A stretch of DNA of 64,000 nt. Source: Pseudoduganella lutea. GTDB lineage: Bacteria > Pseudomonadota > Gammaproteobacteria > Burkholderiales > Burkholderiaceae_D. Within the stretch, counting starts at the first letter, position 1; each line of letters begins with the position of its first letter. The notes under the pieces are model-generated. The model searched no databases. It saw only the letters and a program-made list of their open reading frames with translations, and was not told where the DNA came from. The stretch is taken from the NCBI RefSeq assembly GCF_004209755.1, contig NZ_CP035913.1:2356001-2420000 (forward strand). Reading direction: 5' to 3'. Position numbers and translations under genes: made by a program. This document shows, one piece after another, positions 43,595 to 55,514 of the stretch.

Positions 43595-44620
43595 ATGAAC
43601 GCCAAAGGAATGGAACGCACACTGGCCATATGGCTACCCAAAGTCCTGGCCGCGTTGCGCAGCTCCGCAGGTATTGAGGGTCATGTCACTCCTGAATCGA
43701 TGCTGTCGGAAGGAATGGTAGAACTGGCTGTCAACGGTACGCTCCTTACCTATACGTGCGAATTCAAAGTCCGCATACCTCACTTTGCCGCGCTCGCAGA
43801 CATGAAGGCGCGTACAAGATTTGGCCCCCCCATACTGCTCATTACGCCCGCAATAAGCCAGGAAATGGCGCTCCGCTGCCGCACCGCAGGTGTCCAGTTT
43901 CTCGATTCGGCTGGTAATGCATACCTGTCAAACGGGCAAGGCATGTTCATATTCGTTGCTGGTTTGAAGGCAGCCGTTGATGACGTGCCACTGGAGGCGA
44001 CTTCCCTTACCACGCCGGCTGCATTGCGGATGGTTCTCGCTTTTCTCGCCAAACCTCCGCTGATCAACGCGCCGTACCGCGAGATTTCGTGGGCGGCAAA
44101 AGTTTCAACAGGATCGATTGGGCACGTGTTCCATTCGCTCGCTGCGCGAAATTTTCTCGCCACGACAGGGACCGGACGCCACTTGAAGAATGAGAGGTTG
44201 CTGATTGGAGAATGGAGCGCAGGATATGCCAATCGGCTGAGGCCCAAACTGGAACGCCTACGTTTCGCAACAGACAACGTCGACCGCTTCTACAAATGGC
44301 GTCCGACGCCAGGCGTAGCAGCCTGGGGCGGCGAAATGGCGGCAGCGATCATCACAAAGCACCTGAAGCCACAGCAATTGACTATCTACCTGGATATGCA
44401 TGTTCCTGGGGCACTGAATGAGATTGTCACCCAGTTCCGGTTACGTAAGGATAACCAGGGTGCGATCGAGATCGTGCAGCCATTTTGGGAGCTCGACGCT
44501 CTGGAGGTGACGCCGGGCATCGCCCCACTTCCTTTGGTCTACGCGGATTTGCTCGTGAGTGGCGATCCACGCAATATCGAAGTCGCGTCCCATCTCCTGG
44601 AAAAGATGAACGATGCTTAG
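43595..44620 (+). CDS. AbiEi-like antitoxin of a type IV toxin-antitoxin system
   Basis: A 341-residue protein with an N-terminal region (about 50-125) resembling the restriction-endonuclease-like part of AbiEi-type proteins (FKVRIPHFAALADMKAR, PAISQEMALRCRTAGVQFLDSAGNAYL) and a central winged helix (about 145-190: LRMVLAFLAKPPLINAPYREISWAAKVSTGSIGHVF region). The C-terminal half (210-341) is longer than in minimal AbiEi. It overlaps the downstream nucleotidyltransferase gene by 8 bp, the usual antitoxin-toxin order. Base composition and codon use are less GC-biased than neighbours, indicating acquisition. AbiEi naming is by family pattern and context. Confidence 0.7.
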   Translation: MNAKGMERTLAIWLPKVLAALRSSAGIEGHVTPESMLSEGMVELAVNGTLLTYTCEFKVRIPHFAALADMKARTRFGPPILLITPAISQEMALRCRTAGVQFLDSAGNAYLSNGQGMFIFVAGLKAAVDDVPLEATSLTTPAALRMVLAFLAKPPLINAPYREISWAAKVSTGSIGHVFHSLAARNFLATTGTGRHLKNERLLIGEWSAGYANRLRPKLERLRFATDNVDRFYKWRPTPGVAAWGGEMAAAIITKHLKPQQLTIYLDMHVPGALNEIVTQFRLRKDNQGAIEIVQPFWELDALEVTPGIAPLPLVYADLLVSGDPRNIEVASHLLEKMNDA

Positions 44621-45461
44621 CATTCCACTTGAGCGCCCACTGTTGCCCGAGACGTTGCAAATCCTTCATGCGGTCCAGCAGGTTACTCAATTCCATGGCA
44701 TCGATCATTTCGTCATCGGTGCCACTGCGCGCGATATTCTGATGCAGCACGTCTTTGGCATTCCCGCTGGCCGTGCAACCCGGGACGTTGACTTCGCGAT
44801 CGCTGTCGGGAATTGGCAGCAATTCGAAATGATCCGGGAAAAGTTGATCGCCACGGGGCGGTTTCATGAAGCGCCATCCATCGCGCATCGACTCTATTTC
44901 GAATCTGCCGAACACGGTGAAGCGTATCCCCTGGACCTCGTGCCGTTTGGCGCGGTAGAGCATAAGCCGCATGAAATCGCATGGCCCCCCGACATGCATA
45001 TCGTGATGAACGTCGCAGGGTATGCCGAGGCGCTTGAAACCGCGCTGACAGTCGATGTCGGCGGCTTTAACGTGCGCGTCGTCTCGCTTCCCGGACTTGC
45101 CGCGCTCAAGTTGCTTGCTTGGGCCGACAGGCACGATGAGCACACAAAGGATGCATTGGATTTGCGGTTCCTGATGGGAAACTACCATCAGGCCGGAAAT
45201 TTTGACAGGTTGTACGATGAAGCGATGGATGTCATGGAAAGGACTGGCTATGACATCAGTCTGGCGGGGGCCGCTTTACTCGGCATGGATACCCGTCGCA
45301 TGCTGGCACCGGCGACATTGACCGCCATGCTTGCCATTCTCCACGCACCAAAGCTGCGCGACAGACTTCTCACGCACATGAGCGTGGCCTTGGTCGATCG
45401 TGATCAGGTGTCAGATGAATTGATTCAACAATTTACACAAGGACTGATGACAGAACGGTAG
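44613..45461 (+). CDS. AbiEii-like nucleotidyltransferase toxin
   Basis: A 282-residue protein of the nucleotidyltransferase superfamily (AbiEii/AbiGii toxin family). The active-site pattern is G36-A37-T38 (FVIGATARDI) with D58 and D60 in TRDVDFAIAV; a third acidic site is LDLVPFGAVE. A helical C-terminal half includes VVSLPGLAALKLLAWADR, typical of AbiEii proteins, where it interacts with substrate RNA. Known relatives modify tRNA or other RNA ends and cause reversible growth arrest, blocking phage. Translationally coupled to the antitoxin gene (8-bp overlap). The island ends about 70 bp before the DUF971 gene. Confidence 0.75.
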   Translation: MLSIPLERPLLPETLQILHAVQQVTQFHGIDHFVIGATARDILMQHVFGIPAGRATRDVDFAIAVGNWQQFEMIREKLIATGRFHEAPSIAHRLYFESAEHGEAYPLDLVPFGAVEHKPHEIAWPPDMHIVMNVAGYAEALETALTVDVGGFNVRVVSLPGLAALKLLAWADRHDEHTKDALDLRFLMGNYHQAGNFDRLYDEAMDVMERTGYDISLAGAALLGMDTRRMLAPATLTAMLAILHAPKLRDRLLTHMSVALVDRDQVSDELIQQFTQGLMTER

Positions 45462-45530: not shown

Positions 45531-45821
45531 TCAACAGAGAGCGGCGGCCAGGTTGGCCAGCATCGCGAACGGATAGATACCCCGCGCATGCCCATCGCTG
45601 AAACCCAGGTTCAGCGCATTGGTGCCTGCCGGTTCGATGACGGTCAGGCGGAGGGTATCCGGCGCTTCGATGGCAACGCCGGCAAGGCGCAGCGCGCGGC
45701 ACCCGGAGCACGGGCAGGCGGCACGCAGGTCGGCGTGGGTGAATGCATGTTCGCTGCCGTCGCTCCAGCGCACGGCAAGCACGCCGGAGCGCGCACGGTT
45801 CTCGATATGCTCGATGTTCAT
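45531..45821 (-). CDS. DUF971 (GBBH-like N-terminal domain) protein
   Basis: A 96-residue protein that is a single DUF971 domain, the small zinc-binding domain also found at the N-terminus of gamma-butyrobetaine hydroxylase. VRWSDGSEHAFTHADLRAACPCSGCRA shows the CxC/C pattern for metal binding; LGFSDGHARGIYPFAML is the conserved end. The start overlaps the stop of the HEAT-repeat gene (4 bp), so it is the last gene of the eight-gene operon. Stand-alone DUF971 proteins often occur near iron-sulfur or Mrp-type proteins, which fits the ferredoxin upstream. Confidence 0.82.
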   Translation of the reverse strand: MNIEHIENRARSGVLAVRWSDGSEHAFTHADLRAACPCSGCRALRLAGVAIEAPDTLRLTVIEPAGTNALNLGFSDGHARGIYPFAMLANLAAALC

Positions 45822-46774
45822 GCCGCCGCCTCCGTTTGCTGCAACGCCAGCCGGGCGGACTTGCGCACTTCCGGGTCCGGGTCGTTGGCCGCTTCGCGCA
45901 ATGCGGGCAAGGCCAGCGGCGACGCGATTTCACCGAGCGCCAGCGCGGCTTCCTTGCGCAGGTTGCTGATCGTGTGCGCCAGCGCGGCGATCAGCGCCGG
46001 CAGCGCGTCATGGCTGCGCAGCCGGCCCAGGCTGCGGGCGGCGCGCAGGCGCACTTGCCAGTAGGGGTCGTCCAGTGCGGCGATCAGGGCGGGACCGGCG
46101 CCTTGCAGGCGCAGCTTGCCCAGCGTGGCCGCGGCTTCTTCCCTGACCTGCCACGCGGCGTCGCGCAGCGCGGACAGCAGTGCAGGCAGCACGGTATCGT
46201 CGGTGGCCGCGCCCAGCGCGCCCACGGCGGCGCGGCGCACGTCGGAATGGGGATCAGCGGTGGCAAGCTTCGTCAGCGCCGGCAAGGCGTCGGCATGTTT
46301 CAGCCAGCCCAGCACGGACACGGCTTCGCGTCGCACCAGCGGCTCGGCATCGTCCAGCGCGGCCAGCGCCGGTGCGGCCGTTTCCGGGGCGCGCAATTCG
46401 CGCACGGCGCGCAGTGCGGCGGCGCGGATAAAACTGTCGCCGCTGGCCAGGGAAGGCAGCAGCGCAATGGCCGAGGAAGCCAGCTTCAGCTGCGCCAGGC
46501 TTTGCGCGGCGGCGTCGCGCACGTCGTCGTCTGCATCTTCGAGCAGGCGTGCCACGCCGGCCACGCTTTCCGGCGTCTCGAACGCTTCCAGCGCCCGGGC
46601 AGCTTCGGCGCGCACGTCGGCCGACGGATCTTCCAGGGCGGCGACCAGCAGCGGCAAATGCTCGTCGCCATCGAGGTCCGCCAGCGCCAGCACGGCGATG
46701 CGGCGCACGGTGGCATCCGGCTCGCGCAGCCGTGCGGTGATCTGCGCCAGTTCGGGGTCGTCGTAATCGGTCAC
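45818..46774 (-). CDS. HEAT-repeat protein
   Basis: A 318-residue protein made almost entirely of about nine 31-residue HEAT (PBS-lyase-type) repeats with the pattern A-L-x-D-x-(D/S)-x-x-V-R-x-x-A-A-x-x-L-G, e.g. ALEDPSADVRAEAARAL, ALRDAAWQVREEAAATLGKL, ALDDPYWQVRLRAARSLGRL. No catalytic motif. Such proteins are scaffolds or cofactor-lyase-like chaperones. It lies between the ABC ATPase gene (12 bp) and the DUF971 gene (4-bp overlap), so it belongs to this operon, perhaps assembling the flavin/Fe-S enzyme. Confidence 0.85.
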   Translation of the reverse strand: MTDYDDPELAQITARLREPDATVRRIAVLALADLDGDEHLPLLVAALEDPSADVRAEAARALEAFETPESVAGVARLLEDADDDVRDAAAQSLAQLKLASSAIALLPSLASGDSFIRAAALRAVRELRAPETAAPALAALDDAEPLVRREAVSVLGWLKHADALPALTKLATADPHSDVRRAAVGALGAATDDTVLPALLSALRDAAWQVREEAAATLGKLRLQGAGPALIAALDDPYWQVRLRAARSLGRLRSHDALPALIAALAHTISNLRKEAALALGEIASPLALPALREAANDPDPEVRKSARLALQQTEAAA

Positions 46775-46786
46775 TTGTTGGTTCCT

Positions 46787-47692
46787 TTATGCATGATGGG
46801 GTGCCGCGCCGTTCGAACCTGCGGGGCCCAACGGGCTGAGGCGGTCGAGCGGCACGATGTTCGCGTGCGGGTGCAGCAGCGCCAGGCAATGGCGTTTATA
46901 AGCGGTGAACTGCGGCGACGTGACAAGGTCCGCGTTGCGCGGCCGCGGGAAATCGAGCCGGATCTCGTCGATGATGCGGCCCGGGCGCGGGCTCATCACG
47001 AGGATGCGGTCGGCCAGGAACAGCGCTTCGTCGATGTCATGCGTGATGAAGACGATCGTCGTCTTCACACGGCTCCACACGTCGAGCAGCAGTTCCTGCA
47101 TCTTGAGGCGCGTTTGCGCGTCGAGGGCGCCGAACGGCTCGTCCATCAGCATCACGCGTGGGCCGTTGATCAGCACGCGGGCAATTTCCACGCGCTGCTG
47201 CATGCCGCCCGAAAGCTGCACCGGGTAGCGGTCCTCGAAGCCATCCAGGCCCACCAGTTTCAGCATGTCGCGCGCCCGCTGGCGCCGTTCCGCGCGCCCC
47301 ACGCCCTTCATCTTCAGGCCAAATGCCACGTTGTCCAGCACCTTCTTCCACGGGAATAGCGTGTGGTGCTGGAACACCAGGCCGCGGTCCGGGTGCGGGC
47401 CGGAGACGGTGTCGCCATCGACGCGGATCGTGCCGCCGCTGGGCTGCCAGTGGCCGGCCAGCCCGCCCAGCAGGGTGGACTTGCCGCAGCCGGAAGGCCC
47501 CAGCACACAGACGAATTCGCCCGGGCGGATGTTCAGCGATACATCCTGCACGGCATCGAAGGCCTGTTTCCCCTGCCCCAGGCGGATCGTCAGGTGTTCG
47601 ATGTCGATGTTACCGTGAGCCCCGGGGGAGACGTCACTGCGCAATGCGCGTTCTTCGATTGCGGAGCGTTCAGCGATTGATTCGCGATTCAT
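46787..47692 (-). CDS. ABC transporter ATP-binding protein (NitT/TauT/SsuB type)
   Basis: Energises the importer encoded upstream. The 301-residue protein has Walker A GPSGCGKST (65-73), Q-loop FQHHTLFPW, signature LSGGMQQR, Walker B VMLMDEPF and H-loop THD; the segment after it (DRILVMSPRPGRI) is typical of nitrate/taurine/sulfonate ATPases. An N-terminal 30-residue extension precedes the domain. It overlaps the permease gene by 4 bp (47689-47692). The substrate cannot be set from this subunit. Confidence 0.9.
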   Translation of the reverse strand: MNRESIAERSAIEERALRSDVSPGAHGNIDIEHLTIRLGQGKQAFDAVQDVSLNIRPGEFVCVLGPSGCGKSTLLGGLAGHWQPSGGTIRVDGDTVSGPHPDRGLVFQHHTLFPWKKVLDNVAFGLKMKGVGRAERRQRARDMLKLVGLDGFEDRYPVQLSGGMQQRVEIARVLINGPRVMLMDEPFGALDAQTRLKMQELLLDVWSRVKTTIVFITHDIDEALFLADRILVMSPRPGRIIDEIRLDFPRPRNADLVTSPQFTAYKRHCLALLHPHANIVPLDRLSPLGPAGSNGAAPHHA

Positions 47693-48483
47693 GATTTCGT
47701 CCTCGTCATCAGGTACCACGGCAGGAACAGGTTGCCGATCCGTTTTACCAGCACGCTGCTGCCCATGCCGATGGCGCCGATGAGCAGCATGCCCACGACG
47801 ATCTCGGGATAGTTCTGGATCGTGTACGACGCCCACGTGTAGTAGCCGATGCCGAACTGGCCGGAGATCATTTCCGCCGTCACCAGGCAGAACCACGCGG
47901 TGCCCATGCCGATCGCCAGTCCGGTCACGATGCTGGGTGCGGCGGCCGGCAGGATCACTTCGGCGAAGATGCTCCACCGCCCTGCCCCCAGGCTGCGGGC
48001 CGAGGCGACCAGCCGCTGGTCCACGGCTTCCACGCCATGGATCGTGTTCAGCAGGATCGGGAACAGCGCGCCGATGAAGGTGATGAACACCATCGACGCT
48101 TCCGACGAGGGGAACATCAGGATCGCCAGCGGAATCCACGCCACGGCGGGAATCGGGCGCAGTACCTCGAGCGGCGGCATCAGCACGTCCTCGATCCAGC
48201 GCGAGCGCCCGATCACGAGGCCCAGCAGGATGCCGATCGCCGCGGCGCCCGCAAAGCCGGCGAACACGCGGTAGACGCTGGCGGAAAGGTGCTGCGACAA
48301 CTTCGGCGATTCGACCAGGTCCCTGGCCGCCGCCACCACGTCGACGGGTGCCGGCACGTTCTGGAACGTGACGAGCCCCAGGTCGACCTGCTTCGATGCG
48401 GCCACCTGCCAGGCGGCCACGCAGGCGGCAATCGACAGCAGCCCGACGATCGCGCGGAGTGTTTTCGATGCGGTCGTGTTCAC
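47689..48483 (-). CDS. ABC transporter permease (NitT/TauT/SsuC type)
   Basis: A 264-residue permease with six helices and the EAA loop (VDQRLVASARSLGAGRWSIFAEVILPAAAPSIV). LRPIPAVAWIPLAILMF is the characteristic TauC/SsuC/NrtB segment. I used GTG at 48483, preceded by a GGAAA-type site; a TTG at 48498 overlapping the stop of the binding-protein gene is an alternative. It lies 11 bp after the binding-protein gene. Confidence 0.88.
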   Translation of the reverse strand: MNTTASKTLRAIVGLLSIAACVAAWQVAASKQVDLGLVTFQNVPAPVDVVAAARDLVESPKLSQHLSASVYRVFAGFAGAAAIGILLGLVIGRSRWIEDVLMPPLEVLRPIPAVAWIPLAILMFPSSEASMVFITFIGALFPILLNTIHGVEAVDQRLVASARSLGAGRWSIFAEVILPAAAPSIVTGLAIGMGTAWFCLVTAEMISGQFGIGYYTWASYTIQNYPEIVVGMLLIGAIGMGSSVLVKRIGNLFLPWYLMTRTKS

Positions 48484-48494
48484 GATGTTTCCGA

Positions 48495-49892
48495 TCAAAT
48501 GACCGTGCCGGTCTTGAGCTTGTCGTAATCGACGACCTGGCCGCCGTTCTTCTTCGCCCACGCGTCCGCATCGGCCTTCAGCAGGAATGCGCCGGCTTCC
48601 TTGCCCTTGACGACGAACCATGCATCGGCCGCCAGCAGCTTCAGGCCCGTACCCCGGTCATGCGCATACACGGTGCGCACTTTCTTGCCGCCGCTTTCAA
48701 GCTTGCGCAGTTCCGCGAAGGCCGTATCGGCGTTCGCATAGTGGCGCACCAGCGGCTCGCCCTGCACCCAGATCTGCGTGAGCTGCCTGAAGTCCGCGAT
48801 CGGCTTGCCGGTCACCGCGTCCTTGGCGGAGAGCGGCAGCTTGGCGTAGTTCTTCAGCGCCTTGTCATAGTCCAGGTTCGACTGCTTGAACGCCGTGCGC
48901 AGGTAGGAGTCGTCGATGAAGCTGTTGACGTCGATGTCGCTTTCCGTGCGCTTGAGCAGGCGCAGCGTCTGGATCGACGTGGCCACCGCCTGCCGGTACT
49001 CGGGCTTCCACGTGAAGTCGCGCGTCTGCAAGCCGACCGGGCCGTGGAACAGGTAATTCACTTCCGCCTCGATGCCCGTCACCTTGGCAATCAGTTCGCT
49101 GTACTTTTCCGGCTCGGCGGCGATCAGCCGGTCCGCTTCCAGCGCGGCGCGCAGGTAGGCCACCACGATCTCGGGATACTTTTTCGCGTAGGCCGCATCC
49201 ACCAGGCTGCCGTGCAGCGTGGCTGCCTTGGCCTGCGAGCCATCGAAGATCTTGCGCGCATAGCCGCGGTGCGGGAACAGCTCGGCGAACGGCACGAAAT
49301 CGGCGTGTGCTTCGATCTTGTTGCTTTGCAGGGCAGATCCGGCGATTTCCGGCGCCTGCGTGGTGATGTTCACGTCTTTTTCCGGATCCCAGCCCTGCGC
49401 CTTCACGGCCCGCAGCAGCATGCCATGCGCGGTCGAGGCGAACGGCACCGAGATCGTCTTGCCTTTCAGCTCGGCAAGCGACTGCACGCTTGATCCCTTC
49501 GGCACGACGATGCCGTTGCCCGAACCGAGCGTGCTGCCGGATAGCACGGTGATGAAGATGCTTTTCTTGCCGGCCTTCTGGTGCGCGGCACCGTTGAACG
49601 AGCCGGGGAAGTCGGCCATCGAGCCGATATCGAGCTTGCCCGCCACCATCTCGTTCGTGAGCGGCGCGCCGGACGTGAAGTTCTTCCACACGATGTCGTA
49701 CTTTGCATCCTTGTACTTGCCATCCTTCGGCAGGTATTTCTGCAGCAGGTTCAGCTCGCGGATCAGCAGGCCGCCGGTGGCGCAGTTGATCGTGGTGTCC
49801 TGCGTGCCGATGGCAACGCGGATCGTTTCGGCGTTGGCGCCACTGAAGGCGACGAGCAAAGAGAGGCCGATCAGGTGTCTGGACAATGTCAT
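48495..49892 (-). CDS. ABC substrate-binding protein with NosL-like C-terminal domain
   Basis: Secreted (signal peptide, cleavage around SGANA-E) binding protein of the NitT/TauT family: RVAIGTQDTTINCATGGLLI, KLDIGSMADFPGSFNGAA and LKGKTISVPFASTAHGMLL are the two-lobe core (about 25-340). It is 465 aa, about 130 longer than usual. The last ~100 residues (TVYAHDRGTGLKLLAADAWFV, EAGAFLLKADADAWAKKNGG) resemble the metal-binding NosL domain, although the CxxC/Met copper site is not obvious. The fusion is unusual and points to a redox or metal-linked substrate. It follows the ferredoxin gene by 30 bp. Confidence 0.8.
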   Translation of the reverse strand: MTLSRHLIGLSLLVAFSGANAETIRVAIGTQDTTINCATGGLLIRELNLLQKYLPKDGKYKDAKYDIVWKNFTSGAPLTNEMVAGKLDIGSMADFPGSFNGAAHQKAGKKSIFITVLSGSTLGSGNGIVVPKGSSVQSLAELKGKTISVPFASTAHGMLLRAVKAQGWDPEKDVNITTQAPEIAGSALQSNKIEAHADFVPFAELFPHRGYARKIFDGSQAKAATLHGSLVDAAYAKKYPEIVVAYLRAALEADRLIAAEPEKYSELIAKVTGIEAEVNYLFHGPVGLQTRDFTWKPEYRQAVATSIQTLRLLKRTESDIDVNSFIDDSYLRTAFKQSNLDYDKALKNYAKLPLSAKDAVTGKPIADFRQLTQIWVQGEPLVRHYANADTAFAELRKLESGGKKVRTVYAHDRGTGLKLLAADAWFVVKGKEAGAFLLKADADAWAKKNGGQVVDYDKLKTGTVI

Positions 49893-49922
49893 TTTTTATT
49901 CTCCAAGAAGCTATGGCAAGCG

Positions 49923-50156
49923 TCAGCGCAGCAGGTAAGGGATGTCGACGTGGACTGCCCCGGTGGGGCAATCCTTCTCGCATGGCATGCAATACCAGCA
50001 TTCGTCGAACTTCATGTAGGCCGTGCCTTTCGACAGGTCGATGGCCAGGACGTCGAGCGGGCACACGTCCACGCAGACGGTGCAACCCTTGTGGGCGATG
50101 CACTTGTCGGCGTCCACGGTGACGGGCACGCTGGTGATGTTGATCGTGGTGGGCAT
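49923..50156 (-). CDS. AprB-like 2[4Fe-4S] ferredoxin
   Basis: A 77-residue ferredoxin with two cluster motifs: C19, C25, C28, C32 (CX5CX2CX3CP) and C53, C56, C59, C63 (CX2CX2CX3CP). ECWYCMPCEKDCPTGA closely resembles the beta subunit of dissimilatory APS reductase, minus its C-terminal tail. It lies 9 bp after the flavoprotein gene and is probably its electron-transfer subunit. It is too short to be a complete AprB. Confidence 0.85.
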   Translation of the reverse strand: MPTTINITSVPVTVDADKCIAHKGCTVCVDVCPLDVLAIDLSKGTAYMKFDECWYCMPCEKDCPTGAVHVDIPYLLR

Positions 50157-50165
50157 TGCTTCTCC

Positions 50166-51896
50166 TTAAGCTGCCAGGGGTTGAGCGACCCGCAAGCGTT
50201 GATAGGCGGTTTTTTCTTCGTCTTCCAGCGGCACGATGTAAGGTTCGATCGCACGCTTGAAGCACACCATCTCGCCATCCTGCTTTTGCAACTGCACGTG
50301 CACGAACCAGTCCTGGTCGTTGCGCTGCGGGTAGTCGACGCGGTTGTGGTACAGGCCCCAGCGGCTCTCGGTGCGGTACAGCGAGGCACGCGCCGCCATC
50401 TCGGCGCAGTCGCGGATCGCATGCACTTCCATCGCGCGCATCAGTTCGTGCGGATTGCGCGCCTGGATGCGGTCGAGATCCTGGCGGATCGATTCGAAGC
50501 GCTGCAGGCCGATCTCCATCTTCTTCGTAACCTTCGGCGGCTGCAGGTAGTCGTTGACCATGCGCCGCAGCTTGTACTCGACCTGGTTCGGCGGCAGCCC
50601 GTCCTCGCGGTGCAGGGGCGCCCACACGCGCTCGCGTTCCGCCTCGACCTGCGCCGCGTCGACGGCCGGCAGTTCGTGCGCGGCGCAGTACGCGGCGGCG
50701 CTCTCACCAGCCAGCTTGCCGTAGACGAAAGCACCCAGCATATAGTTGTGCGGCACGCAGGCCAGGTCGCCGGCGGCATGCAGGCCCGCGACCGTGGTGC
50801 GCGCGTGTTCATCGACCCACACGCCGGACGCCGAGTGGCCGCTGCACAGGCCGATCTCCGAAATGTGCATCTCCACCATCTGCTGGCGGTAGTCGGTGCC
50901 GCGGCCATCGTGGAAACGGCCCCGGCTCGGGCGCTCGTTCGTGTGCAGGATCGTTTCGATCGTCTGGATGGTTTCCTCGGCCAGGTGGTTCAGCTTCAGG
51001 AACACGGGGCCGTTGCCGCCTTGCAGTTCGTTGTAGAACTCCTGCATCATCTGGCCACTCCAGTAATCGCATTCGATGAAGCGCTCTTCCTTTGCATTCG
51101 TGGTGTGGCCACCGAACGGACCGGTGACATAGGCGCACGACGGGCCGTTGTAATCCTTGATGAGAGGATTGATCTGGAAGCACTCGATGCCCGACAGTTC
51201 CGCACCGGCGTGGTAGGCCATGCTGTAACCATCGCCCGCGTTGGTCGGGTTTTCATAGGTGCCGAACAGGTAGCCCGATGCCGGCAGCCCGAGGCGGCCC
51301 GCCGCGCCGGTGGCCAGCACGACGGATTTCGCGCGGATCACGTGGAAATCCGCCGTGCGGCAGTCGAACGCCATCGCGCCGGCGATGCTGCCGTCTTCCG
51401 CCAGCAGCAGGCGCGTGGCGACAAGGCGGTTGGTGATCTCCACGCGGGTGCGCTTCAGGCGGCGGTACAGCACCTTCTTGATGTCGTGCCCTTCCGGCAT
51501 CGGCAGCACGTAGGTGCCCATATGGTGCACCTTGCGCATCGCGTAGTCGCCCGTTTCATCCTTCTCGAAACGCACGCCCCAACGGTCCAGCTCCTCGATC
51601 ATCGCGTAGCTGTTCTGCGCGTAGGCCATCACGGTTTTCTGGTTGACGATGCCGTCGTTGGCGACCGTGATCTCCTTCACGTACTGCTCGGGCGTGGCGA
51701 ACCCCGGCACGACGGCATTGTTCAGGCCATCCATGCCCATCGAGATCGCGCCGCTGCGCTTCACGTTGGCCTTTTCCAGCAGCAGCACGCGCAGCGCGGG
51801 GTTGGCTTCCTTCGCCTTGACGGCCGCCATCGGCCCGGCGGTGCCGCCGCCGATGACGAGCACGTCGACGGTTTGTTCGATTGTCTCCATAGTCAT
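50166..51896 (-). CDS. AprA-like FAD flavoprotein (fumarate reductase/APS reductase superfamily)
   Basis: A 576-residue flavoprotein. DVLVIGGGTAGPMAAV (11-26) binds FAD; NVKRSGAISMGMDGLNNAV is close to the AprA-type signature RSGA-Q/M-G, and SKVV-like AKSVVLATGAAGRLGLPASG and GLHAAGDLACVPHNYMLGAFVYGKLAGE complete the FAD fold. The C-terminal helical domain is of the Sdh/Apr type. AprA from sulfate reducers is longer (about 650) and acts on APS; this protein sits instead with a NitT/TauT-type importer and a GntR regulator, so the substrate is open. An alternative start is the ATG at 51890. Confidence 0.85.
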   Translation of the reverse strand: MTMETIEQTVDVLVIGGGTAGPMAAVKAKEANPALRVLLLEKANVKRSGAISMGMDGLNNAVVPGFATPEQYVKEITVANDGIVNQKTVMAYAQNSYAMIEELDRWGVRFEKDETGDYAMRKVHHMGTYVLPMPEGHDIKKVLYRRLKRTRVEITNRLVATRLLLAEDGSIAGAMAFDCRTADFHVIRAKSVVLATGAAGRLGLPASGYLFGTYENPTNAGDGYSMAYHAGAELSGIECFQINPLIKDYNGPSCAYVTGPFGGHTTNAKEERFIECDYWSGQMMQEFYNELQGGNGPVFLKLNHLAEETIQTIETILHTNERPSRGRFHDGRGTDYRQQMVEMHISEIGLCSGHSASGVWVDEHARTTVAGLHAAGDLACVPHNYMLGAFVYGKLAGESAAAYCAAHELPAVDAAQVEAERERVWAPLHREDGLPPNQVEYKLRRMVNDYLQPPKVTKKMEIGLQRFESIRQDLDRIQARNPHELMRAMEVHAIRDCAEMAARASLYRTESRWGLYHNRVDYPQRNDQDWFVHVQLQKQDGEMVCFKRAIEPYIVPLEDEEKTAYQRLRVAQPLAA

Positions 51897-51904
51897 ATTC
51901 CCGC

Positions 51905-52684
51905 TCAGTTTCCTTGATTGGTGGTGGTGGTGCGGCGGGGCAGCCGCAACGTGTACTGGAACGCGTCGCCGCGCACGTACAGGTATTCGAAATCGAGGGG
52001 CACGCCGTCGACGGTCCACGTGAGGCGTTCGATGCGCAGCAGCGCGGTGCCGGGCGCGACGTCCAGCGCGGCCGCCAATCCGGCATCGGCCGCGATGGCG
52101 CCGATGTGGATATCGGCGTGCGACAGCGCCAGCCCGTAATCCGTTTCCAGGATCAGGAAGATGTCGCGTTCGGCCAGGTTCTCGCCGCGCAGCCGGTCGC
52201 CGATACGGATGGGCAGGTAGGTGATTTCATACGACACCGGCTCGTGGTCGACGTGGCGCACGCGGCGGATTTCCGTGACCCGGGCACCGGCCGCGAGCTG
52301 CAGCTGGCCGGCCACATGCGGCTCGGCCACCACGGTGACATGGCTGAGCACCCGGTTGACGACGGCATGGCCGCGGCGCGACATCGCCTCGCCGAAGCCT
52401 TCGAGCCGGGCCAGGTCCTGGCTCGGCCGCGGCTGCGCCACGAACGTGCCCTTGCCGGGCACCTTGACGATCAGGCCCTCGTTCTGCAGCTCGGCCAGCG
52501 CCTGGCGCACGGTGATGCGGCTGACACGGAAGATCGCACTGATCTCGCTTTCGGCCGGCAACCGCGCCGCCGGTTCATAGGTGCCGTCGACGATCCGCTC
52601 GCGCAGGCGTTCGCGCACTTGCGAATACAGCGGTGCGGCGGAAGATTCGAGGGCTCGGAAATTGGGCATGTGCGGCGTGGTCAT
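51905..52684 (-). CDS. GntR/HutC family regulator with UTRA domain
   Basis: A 259-residue regulator heading the operon. N-terminal wHTH at about 13-75 (LYSQVRERLRERIVDGTY, SEISAIFRVSRITVRQALAELQNEGL), then a UTRA ligand domain (about 95-240; SYEITYLPIRIGDRL, DIFLILETDYGLALSHADI, LLRIERLTWTVDGVPLDFEYLYVRGD). An upstream in-frame ATG at 52711 would run through a 14-bp palindrome, so I prefer the ATG at 52684 (or 52669). It is 8 bp upstream of the flavoprotein gene. UTRA domains bind small metabolites, so the operon is likely substrate-induced. Confidence 0.87.
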   Translation of the reverse strand: MTTPHMPNFRALESSAAPLYSQVRERLRERIVDGTYEPAARLPAESEISAIFRVSRITVRQALAELQNEGLIVKVPGKGTFVAQPRPSQDLARLEGFGEAMSRRGHAVVNRVLSHVTVVAEPHVAGQLQLAAGARVTEIRRVRHVDHEPVSYEITYLPIRIGDRLRGENLAERDIFLILETDYGLALSHADIHIGAIAADAGLAAALDVAPGTALLRIERLTWTVDGVPLDFEYLYVRGDAFQYTLRLPRRTTTTNQGN

Positions 52685-52703: not shown

Positions 52704-52717
52704 CCTGTCATGACAGG
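52704..52717. promoter_or_regulatory. 14-bp perfect palindrome upstream of the GntR-led operon
   Basis: CCTGTCATGACAGG is a perfect palindrome 20 bp upstream of the preferred GntR start. Its TGTCATGACA core is the kind of short symmetric site used by HutC-type GntR regulators, so it is a candidate autoregulatory operator for the eight-gene operon. Confidence 0.5.
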
Positions 52718-52911
52718 TGATGACGATGCAAGGATGTTATCGACGCGCTGCGGAGGTGAAAACGAATCGTTTCGGTTTTGCTAATGCGGGAAGCGCCTCA
52801 GGCGGTGGCGGCATATCGATATGCGGTGGGTGTGCAGACTGGTATGCAGCCGGGCTCGCGGCGCCGCGCCGGCGTGGCATGATGGCGGATCACCGGATGA
52901 AGGAGGCCACG

Positions 52912-53733
52912 ATGGATGCAATCCCCGTTTCCCAGTCAGAACACTGGAATGGCACGTCGGGAAACGCATGGGTCGACCTGCGCGAAACGCTGGACGACAT
53001 GTTCCGCGGTATCGAGACCTTGCTGGTAGAGGGGCTCGACACCGGCCAGCGGGTGCTGGACGTGGGCTGCGGCACCGGTGGCGCCACGCTCGCGGTGGCG
53101 CGCCGCACGGGGCACGCCACCGGCGTGGATATCTCGGCGCCGATGATCGCCGTGGCGCAGGCCACTGCCGCCGCCACGGGCGTGCCAGCGCAATTCCTGT
53201 GTGCGGACGCATCGCAGTACAGCTTCGCACCGGCCAGCTTCGATGCGCTCGTATCCCGCTTCGGCGTGATGTTCTTCGACGATCCGGTGGCCGCGTTCGC
53301 AAACCTGCGGCTCGCGGTGCGCAGCGGCGGCACGCTGCGCTTCTTCGCCTGGCGCACGGCCGAGGAAAACCCGTTCATGACCGCGGCCGAGCGTGCCGTG
53401 GGTGCGCAACTGCCGCCGCAGCCGCCGCGCAAGGCGGACGATCCGGGGCAGTTCTCGTTCGCCGATGCACGGCGCGTGCATGGCATCCTCGCCGCCGCCG
53501 GCTGGCGGGACATTCGCATCGATCCGCGCGACGTGGCATGCGTGTTCCCGCAACGCGACCTGGAACGCTATGCGACGATGATGGGCCCGGTGGGACGCGC
53601 GCTGCCACGGCTCGATGCCGCCGAACGCGCGGCGATCGTGCCGCAGGCCGAGGCGGCCTTCGCGCCGTTCGTCGACGGCGACAGCGTGCGCTACACGGCG
53701 GCGTGCTGGGACGTCACCGCCACGGCGCCCTGA
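52912..53733 (+). CDS. Class I SAM-dependent methyltransferase
   Basis: A 273-residue enzyme of the UbiE/Methyltransf_11 type: motif I VLDVGCGTGGATLAVAR, then GHATGVDISAPMIAVAQ and a FDALVSRFGVMFFDDP motif. AGGAGG lies 5 bp before the ATG at 52912. The C-terminal 100 residues form the substrate cap with no recognisable specificity. It is monocistronic, between the GntR operon (divergent) and the PAS protein gene (convergent, 4 bp gap). The substrate is not apparent. Confidence 0.85.
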   Translation: MDAIPVSQSEHWNGTSGNAWVDLRETLDDMFRGIETLLVEGLDTGQRVLDVGCGTGGATLAVARRTGHATGVDISAPMIAVAQATAAATGVPAQFLCADASQYSFAPASFDALVSRFGVMFFDDPVAAFANLRLAVRSGGTLRFFAWRTAEENPFMTAAERAVGAQLPPQPPRKADDPGQFSFADARRVHGILAAAGWRDIRIDPRDVACVFPQRDLERYATMMGPVGRALPRLDAAERAAIVPQAEAAFAPFVDGDSVRYTAACWDVTATAP

Positions 53734-53737
53734 TCCT

Positions 53738-54184
53738 TCAGGAAGCGACCGGCTCGGCGCGCGCGGCCGTCTCCAGCTCCCGCACGCGGGCGCGCAATGC
53801 CCGTTCCTCGCTCCAGCGCGCGGTATCGTCGCGCACCACGGCGATGACCGACGACACGGCGCCGGCGGGCGTGTACAGCATCGCCACGGTGAAGGCGATC
53901 GACAGCGGCTTGCCTTCCTTGTGCAGCGCCGGCACGCGCAGCAGGTCGTTGCCGTAGCGGGTTTCGCCGGTGGACGCGGTCTTGTGATACCCGTCCCAGT
54001 GGCGCTGCCGCTGGCGTTCGGGAATGATCAGGTCGAGCGAATGGCCCAGTGCGTGGTCTGCCGTGAAGCCGAAGATACGCGTTGCCGCGTCGTTCCAGAA
54101 CGTGATCGCGCCGGCCGCGTCGCAGACAATGACGCCGTCGCCGATGCCGCGCACCAGTTGCTCGAAGTCGATCTCGATGGTCAT
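53738..54184 (-). CDS. PAS domain protein
   Basis: A 148-residue single PAS domain (about 5-120): DGVIVCDAAGAITFWNDAATRIFGF, LDLIIPERQRQRHWDGYHKTASTG and SIAFTVAMLY, followed by a short coiled-coil helix (RALRARVRELETAAR). No output domain. The pattern HWDGYHKTA resembles PAS sensors found next to oxalate genes in other proteobacteria. GAGGAGC lies 5 bp upstream of the ATG. It is downstream of frc on the same strand (79 bp gap) and may be the last gene of oxc-frc-PAS. Confidence 0.82.
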   Translation of the reverse strand: MTIEIDFEQLVRGIGDGVIVCDAAGAITFWNDAATRIFGFTADHALGHSLDLIIPERQRQRHWDGYHKTASTGETRYGNDLLRVPALHKEGKPLSIAFTVAMLYTPAGAVSSVIAVVRDDTARWSEERALRARVRELETAARAEPVAS

Positions 54185-54263
54185 GTGAGCTCCTCGAAGA
54201 AAAAATGCGCACCTGCTTGTGGCAGGCGCGCGAACGGGAAGAACCGAAAAAACCGACCCGGGG

Positions 54264-55514
54264 TCAGACGACGCGCTGTTCGTGGAGCGCCGCGATCTGA
54301 TTCTGGCTGTAGCCGAGCGACTCGAGGATTTCATCGGTGTGTTCACCCAGCAGAGGCGATCCCTTGATCTCCACCTTCAGGTCGGAGAACTTGATCGGGC
54401 TGCCCACCGTGAGGTACTTGCCGCGCTCCTTGTGGTCTACCTCGGTGATCGTGCCGCTGGCGCGCAGCGACGGATCGTTGGCGATTTCCTTCATCGACAG
54501 CACGGGCGAGCACGGGATGTCGAACTTGCGCAGCACGTCCACCGCCTCGAACTTGGTCTTGTCCTTCAGCCATTCCTCGATGGTGCCGAAGATACTGAAG
54601 ATCTTGTCCTGGCGCGCCTGCGCCGTCATGTAGGCGGGATCGTCGATCCACTCTTCCTTGCCGATCGCCCGGCAGATCGGCGCCCAGGCATGGCCCTGGA
54701 TCGTGAAATAGATGTAGGCGTTCGGATCGTTTTCCCAGCCCTTGCACTTCAGTACCCAGCCCGGCTGGCCGCCACCGCCGGCATTGCCGCCGCGCGGCAC
54801 CACGTCGGAGAAGGTACCGTGCGGATACTGCGGATATTCCTCGAGGTAGCCCACGCGGTCCAGGCGCTGCTGGTCGCGCAGCTTCACGCGGCACAGGTTC
54901 AGCACGCTGTCCTGCATCGACACGGCCACCTTCTGCCCCCTGCCCGTCACGTCGCGCGAGCGCAGCGCCGTGAGGATGCCGATGGCCAGGTGCATGCCGG
55001 TGTTGCTGTCGCCCAGGGCGGCGGCGCTGACGGTCGGCGGACCGTCGTCGAAGCCGGTGGTCGATGCCGCGCCGCCGGCGCACTGCGCCACGTTCTCGTA
55101 CACCTTCAGGTCTTCGTAGTGGTGGCCGTCGGAAAAGCCTTTCACGGAGGCGACGATCATGCCGGGATTGAGCTCGCGGATGTGCTCCCACGTGAAGCCC
55201 ATGCGATCCAGTGCGCCGGGACCGAAGTTCTCCACCAGCACATCGGATTCCTTGATCAGCTTCGTCAGGATTTCCTTGCCGTCGGCCGTCTTGGTGTCGA
55301 GGGTCAGCGAACGCTTATTGCTGTTCAACATCGTGAAGTACAGCGCGTCGACGCCGGGAATGTCGCGCAACTGCGAGCGGGTCACGTCGCCGGCGCCGGG
55401 CCGCTCCACCTTGATGACGTCGGCGCCGAACCAGGCCAGCATCTGCGTGCAGGCGGGGCCGGCCTGGACGTGCGTGAAGTCGATGATCTTGATACCTTCC
55501 AGTGGCTTGCTCAT
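54264..55514 (-). CDS. frc: Formyl-CoA:oxalate CoA-transferase Frc
   Basis: Transfers CoA from formyl-CoA to oxalate, giving oxalyl-CoA for decarboxylation. A 416-residue class III CoA-transferase. The catalytic Asp lies in [16 protein letters not shown], and the glycine loop GGGGQ (in [12 protein letters not shown]) shields the intermediate; [23 protein letters not shown] is the N-terminal signature and both match the Frc subtype rather than the racemase or carnitine types. It follows oxc (112 bp gap) on the same strand, and together they constitute the oxalate-degrading cycle. Confidence 0.94.

Follow-up and report, generated by a model that had tools for sequence, protein, structure and literature searches.

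Most of the sulfur in soil is bound in sulfonates and sulfate esters, and bacteria that draw on sulfonate sulfur by the common aerobic routes require oxygen. Known desulfonation routes (SsuED, TauD, Xsc, SuyAB, and the glycyl-radical route) release free sulfite from sulfonates; to our knowledge, none of them uses an AprAB-like flavoenzyme fed by ferredoxin. APS reductase (AprAB) and the PAPS reductase of Methanothermococcus thermolithotrophicus carry an arginine at Arg265 (Af numbering), the residue that binds the sulfo group in APS reductase. Two further protein models, NF006131 (PRK08275) and NF010374 (PRK13800, a fusion of flavoprotein and HEAT repeats), are names without an assigned reaction, and automatic annotation calls the flavoprotein family fumarate reductase/succinate dehydrogenase flavoprotein. 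Here, we compared these systems with an eight-gene operon of Pseudoduganella lutea (7.5-Mb genome, single contig) that lies in the window, i.e., the whole 64,000-nucleotide stretch of DNA that was analyzed.

The operon comprised 8 complete minus-strand open reading frames; GntR starts at 52684, and the stop of DUF971 lies at 45531 (Table 1). Intergenic gaps in gene order were 8, 9, 30, 11, -4, 12, and -4 bp, two of them 4-bp overlaps, which agrees with the preliminary description of eight codirectional genes spaced by no more than 30 bp (the strand had been left unstated); its domain assignments for the eight genes were upheld by Pfam and NCBIfam. The GntR-UTRA protein scored above the cut-off of none of 25 listed NCBIfam models. 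The genes sat, qmo, and dsr were absent from the five flanking genes scanned (43.6 to 55.5 kb), and sulfate-activation or Qmo genes were neither among the eight nor noticed beside the operon in plasmid annotations, which are incomplete.

Table 1. Operon features by window position
Feature	Position	Strand	Support
GntR-family regulator, UTRA ligand domain, 259 aa	51905..52684	-	PF00392 + PF07702
AprA-like flavoprotein (NF006131/PRK08275), 576 aa	50166..51896	-	NF006131 1102.6 bits vs cut-off 587
AprB-like 2x[4Fe-4S] ferredoxin subunit, without C-terminal tail, 77 aa	49923..50156	-	Eight invariant Cys
Periplasmic binding protein, TauA/SsuA class, weak C-terminal NosL-like match, 465 aa	48495..49892	-	
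ABC permease, NitT/TauT class, 264 aa	47689..48483	-	PF00528; nearest NCBIfam SsuC, NtrB
ABC ATPase, NitT/TauT class, 301 aa	46787..47692	-	PF00005; nearest NCBIfam TauB-type
HEAT-repeat protein, predicted flavoprotein partner, 318 aa	45818..46774	-	PF13646; NF010374 C-terminal match
DUF971/GBBH-like_N protein, CPCxxC motif, 96 aa	45531..45821	-	PF06155 69.3 bits, cut-off 22.8
Candidate palindromic operator CTGTCATGACAG (consensus YTGTYATRACAR), 5' of gntR	52705..52716	-	

The flavoprotein and ferredoxin formed an alpha-beta flavin/2x[4Fe-4S] pair with the AprA fold, and the nearest solved structure to the flavoprotein, a member of NF006131, was the M. thermolithotrophicus PAPS reductase. Both subunits scored well below the curated Apr models: the flavoprotein reached 175.1 bits against AprA (TIGR02061, cut-off 641.75) and the ferredoxin 38.4 bits against AprB (TIGR02060, cut-off 135.65). 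Of the two subunits described earlier as shortened, the beta subunit is indeed so (77 aa versus 150, 166, and 104 aa in the beta subunits compared), whereas the alpha subunit is not (576 aa versus 571 aa in the M. thermolithotrophicus enzyme). All 129 loci scored shared the eight cysteines of the AprB-like subunit, which are the Fe-S ligands, and its Trp54, the electron-transfer residue that aligns with the tryptophan in the CWEC stretch of AprB. At the place aligned with Arg265, an arginine in the solved structures 1jnr/2fja, 3gyx, and 8a8o, the flavoprotein had leucine throughout two sequence sets (13/13 and 34/34), so a sulfo group must bind here in another way. Trp234 of AprAB and the PAPS reductase was replaced by tyrosine, nucleotide-contact positions were changed, and Af Glu141 and Gln145 had different residues as their counterparts, in a gapped part of the alignment. 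The same two sequence sets were likewise invariant (13/13, 34/34) for N, A, Y, and G at the positions aligned with His242, Thr254, Glu255, and Arg286 of Escherichia coli SdhA, its catalytic residues, and neither a membrane anchor nor an SdhB-type subunit was among the eight genes. Because the arginine is replaced by an invariant leucine and the catalytic residues of succinate dehydrogenase/fumarate reductase are absent, the enzyme is neither an APS reductase nor a fumarate reductase: it retains the APS-reductase fold and the two-cluster ferredoxin and has lost both known active sites. In the predicted structure, the loops had pLDDT below 50, too low for an active-site model.

The HEAT protein matched positions 620 to 879 of the 898-position model NF010374, both halves of which the window keeps as separate genes. 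Given this natural flavoprotein-HEAT fusion, the HEAT protein is the predicted physical partner of the flavoprotein. The three cysteines of the DUF971 protein (CPCxxC) were kept in 89 to 90 of 96 loci scored. DUF971 occurs with Mrp-type Fe-S carriers, e.g., HCF101. In three cyanobacterial loci, the HEAT gene was followed by one for an Mrp/ApbC-type protein (NUBPL-type NTPase and Fe-S assembly domains), and no match to DUF971 was found in these loci, which lends some support, short of proof, to a role of DUF971 in Fe-S maturation or loading. The earlier suggestion that both proteins help assembly is sharpened for HEAT, which the fusion makes a probable partner of the flavoprotein, and somewhat strengthened for DUF971 by the cyanobacterial Mrp.

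All three components of the ABC importer share their class with TauABC/SsuABC, yet none reaches the curated cut-off of any model listed. The binding protein, of the NMT1/SsuA class, matched SsuA_fam (NCBIfam) under its cut-off; TauA came first (5.3e-24) and SsuA next in a PDB profile search, and TauA/SsuA were the top Foldseek matches. By sequence and predicted fold, its nearest relatives are thus TauA/SsuA. Pfam, NCBIfam, PDB profiles, and Foldseek all agreed with the nitrate/taurine/sulfonate class assigned previously, and the combination of a sulfonate/taurine-class importer with the redox pair supports the sequence of events proposed with it, i.e., uptake of an organic anion followed by a flavin/Fe-S redox step. 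The window protein differs from TauA/SsuA by ~150 additional residues and a C-terminal stretch that resembles NosL. Its last ~90 residues (48495-48780, minus strand) matched NosL (PF05573) weakly, under the cut-off (E 0.0013); a similar C-terminal stretch was present in aligned relatives, and a NosL-like domain attached to an ABC binding protein, if real, would be unusual.

The eight-gene set is a widely conserved bacterial system and not a one-off. In a protein search that scored 7,999 candidates, 6,491 relatives reached E<=1e-30, some of which may lie outside NF006131; among 120 listed relatives, those with a genus name were mainly Massilia, Duganella, Pseudoduganella, and Herbaspirillum. 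One source protein, P0086, for which Herbaspirillum seropedicae is a close match, was 88% identical. Of 398 Pseudomonadota genomes, 21 had NF006131, as did 16 of 60 relatives; among 300 genomes from the order of the host, 18 had it above cut-off (the host counted in each). It was found in 3 of 385 genomes of the class of G071 (G071 counted), a sample that contributed only one new genome to alphaproteobacterial sampling. Among the best 80 of at least 590 loci, with partner matches sought within 12 kb, the ferredoxin was found in 79, HEAT in 77, GntR in 75, the ATPase in 73, the permease in 71, the binding protein in 68, and DUF971 in 60, counts in which some loci were cut by contig ends and ATPase or permease matches possibly came from other transporters. 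Of 72,556 plasmid records searched, 53 held the flavoprotein and 38 the binding protein (E<=1e-60), 37 being shared; all 14 records with the HEAT protein at E<=1e-25 also held the flavoprotein (record lists compared by eye). Gene co-occurrence elsewhere, the check set by the preliminary description, thus came out clearly in favor of a real system, both as a conserved operon and in plasmid records.

Five gene arrangements were seen overall, with rearranged sets in rhizobia and cyanobacteria. The order of the window recurred in Massilia, Herbaspirillum, Variovorax, Pseudomonas, and Acinetobacter. Thiobacillus, Halothiobacillus, and related bins had GntR-Apr-Fer-HEAT-FdxA-importer-NfnAB-like-DUF971; alphaproteobacterial plasmids had DUF971-Apr-Fer-HEAT and a separate importer, once followed by FdxA and FNR; two cyanobacteria had importer, LysR, and Apr-Fer-HEAT-Mrp, then YeiH/TauE (order varying); and Tsukamurella had GntR-Fer-importer followed by a flavoprotein fused to HEAT (893 aa). 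Seven flavoproteins from the host's order matched NF006131 under its cut-off at 299 to 353 bits. In the six loci read (L217-L222), these sister flavoproteins, 30 to 34% identical, had no HEAT or importer match and, in one case, a weak ferredoxin match. Literature searches found no paper on the operon (passages of PMC8557817, PMC7661421, and PMC8305402 do not describe it), in keeping with the earlier statement that no published function was known for this gene combination, and no homologous operon with an assigned substrate was found.

Linked ferredoxin or ferredoxin-NADP(H) oxidoreductase genes, of which the window has none, were carried by some relatives. FdxA or FNR occurred in 10 of 20 operon windows and 0 of 20 control windows from those same genomes (Fisher p 2e-4), raw proximity counts that ignore kinship. 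The ten positive loci are non-independent, since all were among 11 loci outside the host's class (probably Alphaproteobacteria) and at least 6 came from one genus. Among 13 further loci, some overlapping the 80-locus set, an NfnAB-like oxidoreductase was found in 9 (one being the source locus of the Nfn query) and FdxA as well in 8 of those. The 80-locus set had FdxA in 12, an Nfn-like gene in 10, and FNR in 1; most loci are thus without linked electron donors. Because relatives do carry these genes, reduction is the likelier direction of the redox step. The flavoenzyme probably works as a reductase, and the linked donors, where present, favor electron flow from NADPH to the flavoprotein.

The genomic context leans toward sulfur, and sulfite in particular, though some tests disagree. 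Of 37 flavoprotein loci in 36 genomes with 29 YeiH (PF03601) genes in all, 8 had a YeiH gene no more than 10 kb away, against ~0.12 expected (Poisson P 9e-13, a raw count ignoring kinship; P 8e-6 with four genera counted once each), in a post hoc comparison that followed its being noticed in cyanobacteria and in 5 of 20 operon windows. Five of the 8 cases belonged to one genus (g128) and were already in those operon windows; the others were in G038, G034, and G071. YeiH near the flavoprotein was not seen in a fresh set of 14 genomes and was seen at 1 locus only of the 80-locus set, so the link is lineage bound: in some lineages, YeiH lies near the flavoprotein more often than expected by chance. 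YeiH is the main driver of Salmonella sulfite resistance in vitro (PMC12880088). Both YeiH and TauE were present in two cyanobacterial plasmid loci, and G034 had a same-strand run of GntR-TauE-Apr-Fer-HEAT-FdxA-SBP-permease-ATPase-DUF971-FNR-YeiH, a second copy that may come from another organism given the 6% contamination of the assembly. Genome-wide, TauE lay near the flavoprotein in G034 only, among the matches listed. Past YeiH, on the same strand, the G034 run continued (L223 2340-4969, minus) with a LysE-type translocator and two open reading frames without a Pfam match. The YeiH gene of G038 (G038:C15:77113-78021), ~1 kb upstream of the flavoprotein gene, has one in-frame TAG.

Linkage to sulfonate monooxygenases was considered and rejected, as 20 operon windows showed no enrichment over 20 matched controls: TauD was in 2 versus 1, LLM in 0 versus 2, SfnB in 0 versus 1, SsuA-like in 1 versus 1, and TauE in 0 versus 1. 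Sulfur keywords, tallied by eye at 16 annotated plasmid loci, appeared in 10 of 16 versus 5 of 16 control half-windows (p 0.08). Nearby genes included metX, metY, and a YeeE-type gene in a Nostoc region, ssuD, TauD, and sulfate-transport genes in Sinorhizobium americanum, and an NtaA/DmoA-type monooxygenase gene in Cupriavidus. The host encodes two proteins with sulfite/nitrite-reductase domains, one of which has two such domains.

The palindrome YTGTYATRACAR is a conserved candidate operator marking the gntR start. When one mismatch was allowed, 63 of 79 upstream regions (window included) had it near that start, 31 with a perfect copy, compared with 0.2 of 79 in mononucleotide shuffles; the pattern was derived from the same 79 regions on which it was scored, many of them related and many from Pseudomonas. 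In a nine-genome search, the operon site was the sole perfect palindrome in G003 and G113, and the other genomes had 1 to 9 sites (reversed pattern, 0 to 6). The host had three sites, one of which (TTGTCATAACAA) lies 11 bp before a likely ssuE, the first gene of an ssuEADCB-like run (ssuD profile match 632 bits, cut-off 518; the remaining ssu genes by eye), and adjoins a divergent acyl-CoA-dehydrogenase-like gene. Two close relatives of the host shared the ssuE palindrome (G031, and G003 with one mismatch). It was absent from 5 of 8 ssu loci examined, the three with the site being close relatives. Since four sites of the host match the pattern when it is reversed, this tie between the operon and sulfonate genes is suggestive only. 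An operator-based regulon was likewise rejected: extra sites in G380 and G117 lay by seemingly unrelated genes (by eye), and the ssuE site alone was retained, as suggestive.

Taking these features together, we tentatively propose that the operon is a GntR-controlled sulfur-acquisition system that reductively frees sulfite from an imported organosulfonate, a reading that we consider possible while stopping somewhat short of calling it probable. The direction of the reaction, the substrate class, and the product are the parts that we infer. The TauABC/SsuABC-class importer would take up an organosulfonate-type anion, and a ferredoxin-NADP(H) oxidoreductase and ferredoxin would, as the relatives suggest, relay electrons from NADPH to a soluble cytosolic alpha-beta flavoenzyme, where they would cross two [4Fe-4S] clusters to reach FAD. 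There, the sulfo group would be split reductively off the substrate, probably via the kind of flavin N5-sulfite adduct that has been proposed in APS reductase, and the sulfite would pass to the cell's sulfite reductase, with YeiH or TauE protecting from any surplus. The HEAT protein would be a structural partner that may replace the missing AprB tail, and DUF971 (Mrp in cyanobacteria) would aid Fe-S cluster loading. The end would be that of the known desulfonation routes, and the set differs from AprAB and the PAPS reductase in its tailless beta subunit and in the addition of an importer and a HEAT partner. The more specific claim of an oxygen-independent desulfonase, an NADPH/ferredoxin-fed relative of APS reductase with the arginine replaced that reductively frees sulfite from organosulfonates, is one that we regard as unlikely, if still a serious candidate.

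Two rival explanations concern the substrate. It may be free of sulfur, a small organic anion or cofactor precursor brought in by the NitT/TauT-class importer, the sulfur neighbors being incidental. At most loci, the window among them, none of the sulfur genes queried adjoins the operon, amidases and GNATs lie near some loci, and NMT1/THI5-type binding proteins also take up pyrimidines; the ssuE site, the nearness of YeiH, and the long operon of G034 speak against this explanation, each within its limits, which we also rate as unlikely without dismissing it. Rather improbable, in our view, is an inorganic or S-sulfo substrate with no C-S bond (thiosulfate, S-sulfocysteine, or similar), even though N5 would attack the outer sulfur and expel a thiolate, which is chemically easier than displacement of a carbanion. 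Fold and electron supply would fit such a substrate equally well, YeiH lies near some loci, and homologues occur on an Acidithiobacillus caldus plasmid and in the Thiobacillus and Halothiobacillus bins, but the binding protein is closest to organosulfonate binders.

The active-site positions weigh on the remaining two explanations. That the enzyme is a variant assimilatory APS/PAPS reductase serving sulfate assimilation, like the M. thermolithotrophicus enzyme, would suit its nearest solved structure; it is made very improbable by the invariant leucine in place of an arginine kept in three solved (P)APS reductases, by the differences (in a gapped alignment) at the Glu141 and Gln145 positions, and by a conserved set that includes a sulfonate-class importer and, in the eight genes, no sulfate-activating gene. 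A fumarate-reductase-type enzyme that reduces a C=C bond has the superfamily and the automatic name in its favor; with all four SdhA catalytic positions replaced invariantly, we give it the least credence of all. If the desulfonase reading is right, bacteria from soil and from plants as well as cyanobacteria would have a new biochemical route to sulfonate sulfur, and the flavin chemistry of APS reductase would reach a class of substrates new to it. A ferredoxin-driven route would open the sulfonate pool without oxygen to plant-associated or microoxic bacteria and cyanobacteria, assign a function to a large family now named automatically, and account for the HEAT and DUF971 proteins that accompany the flavoprotein.

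The surroundings of the operon in the window contained several other genes. An AbiEi-type antitoxin and AbiEii-type nucleotidyltransferase pair (43595-45461, plus strand; type IV toxin-antitoxin) directly adjoins the 3' end of the operon in convergent orientation. Past the GntR gene, 52717-55514 holds genes for a methyltransferase (plus), a PAS-domain protein (minus), and a CoA-transferase of family III (minus), the last formyl-CoA transferase-like as judged by eye.
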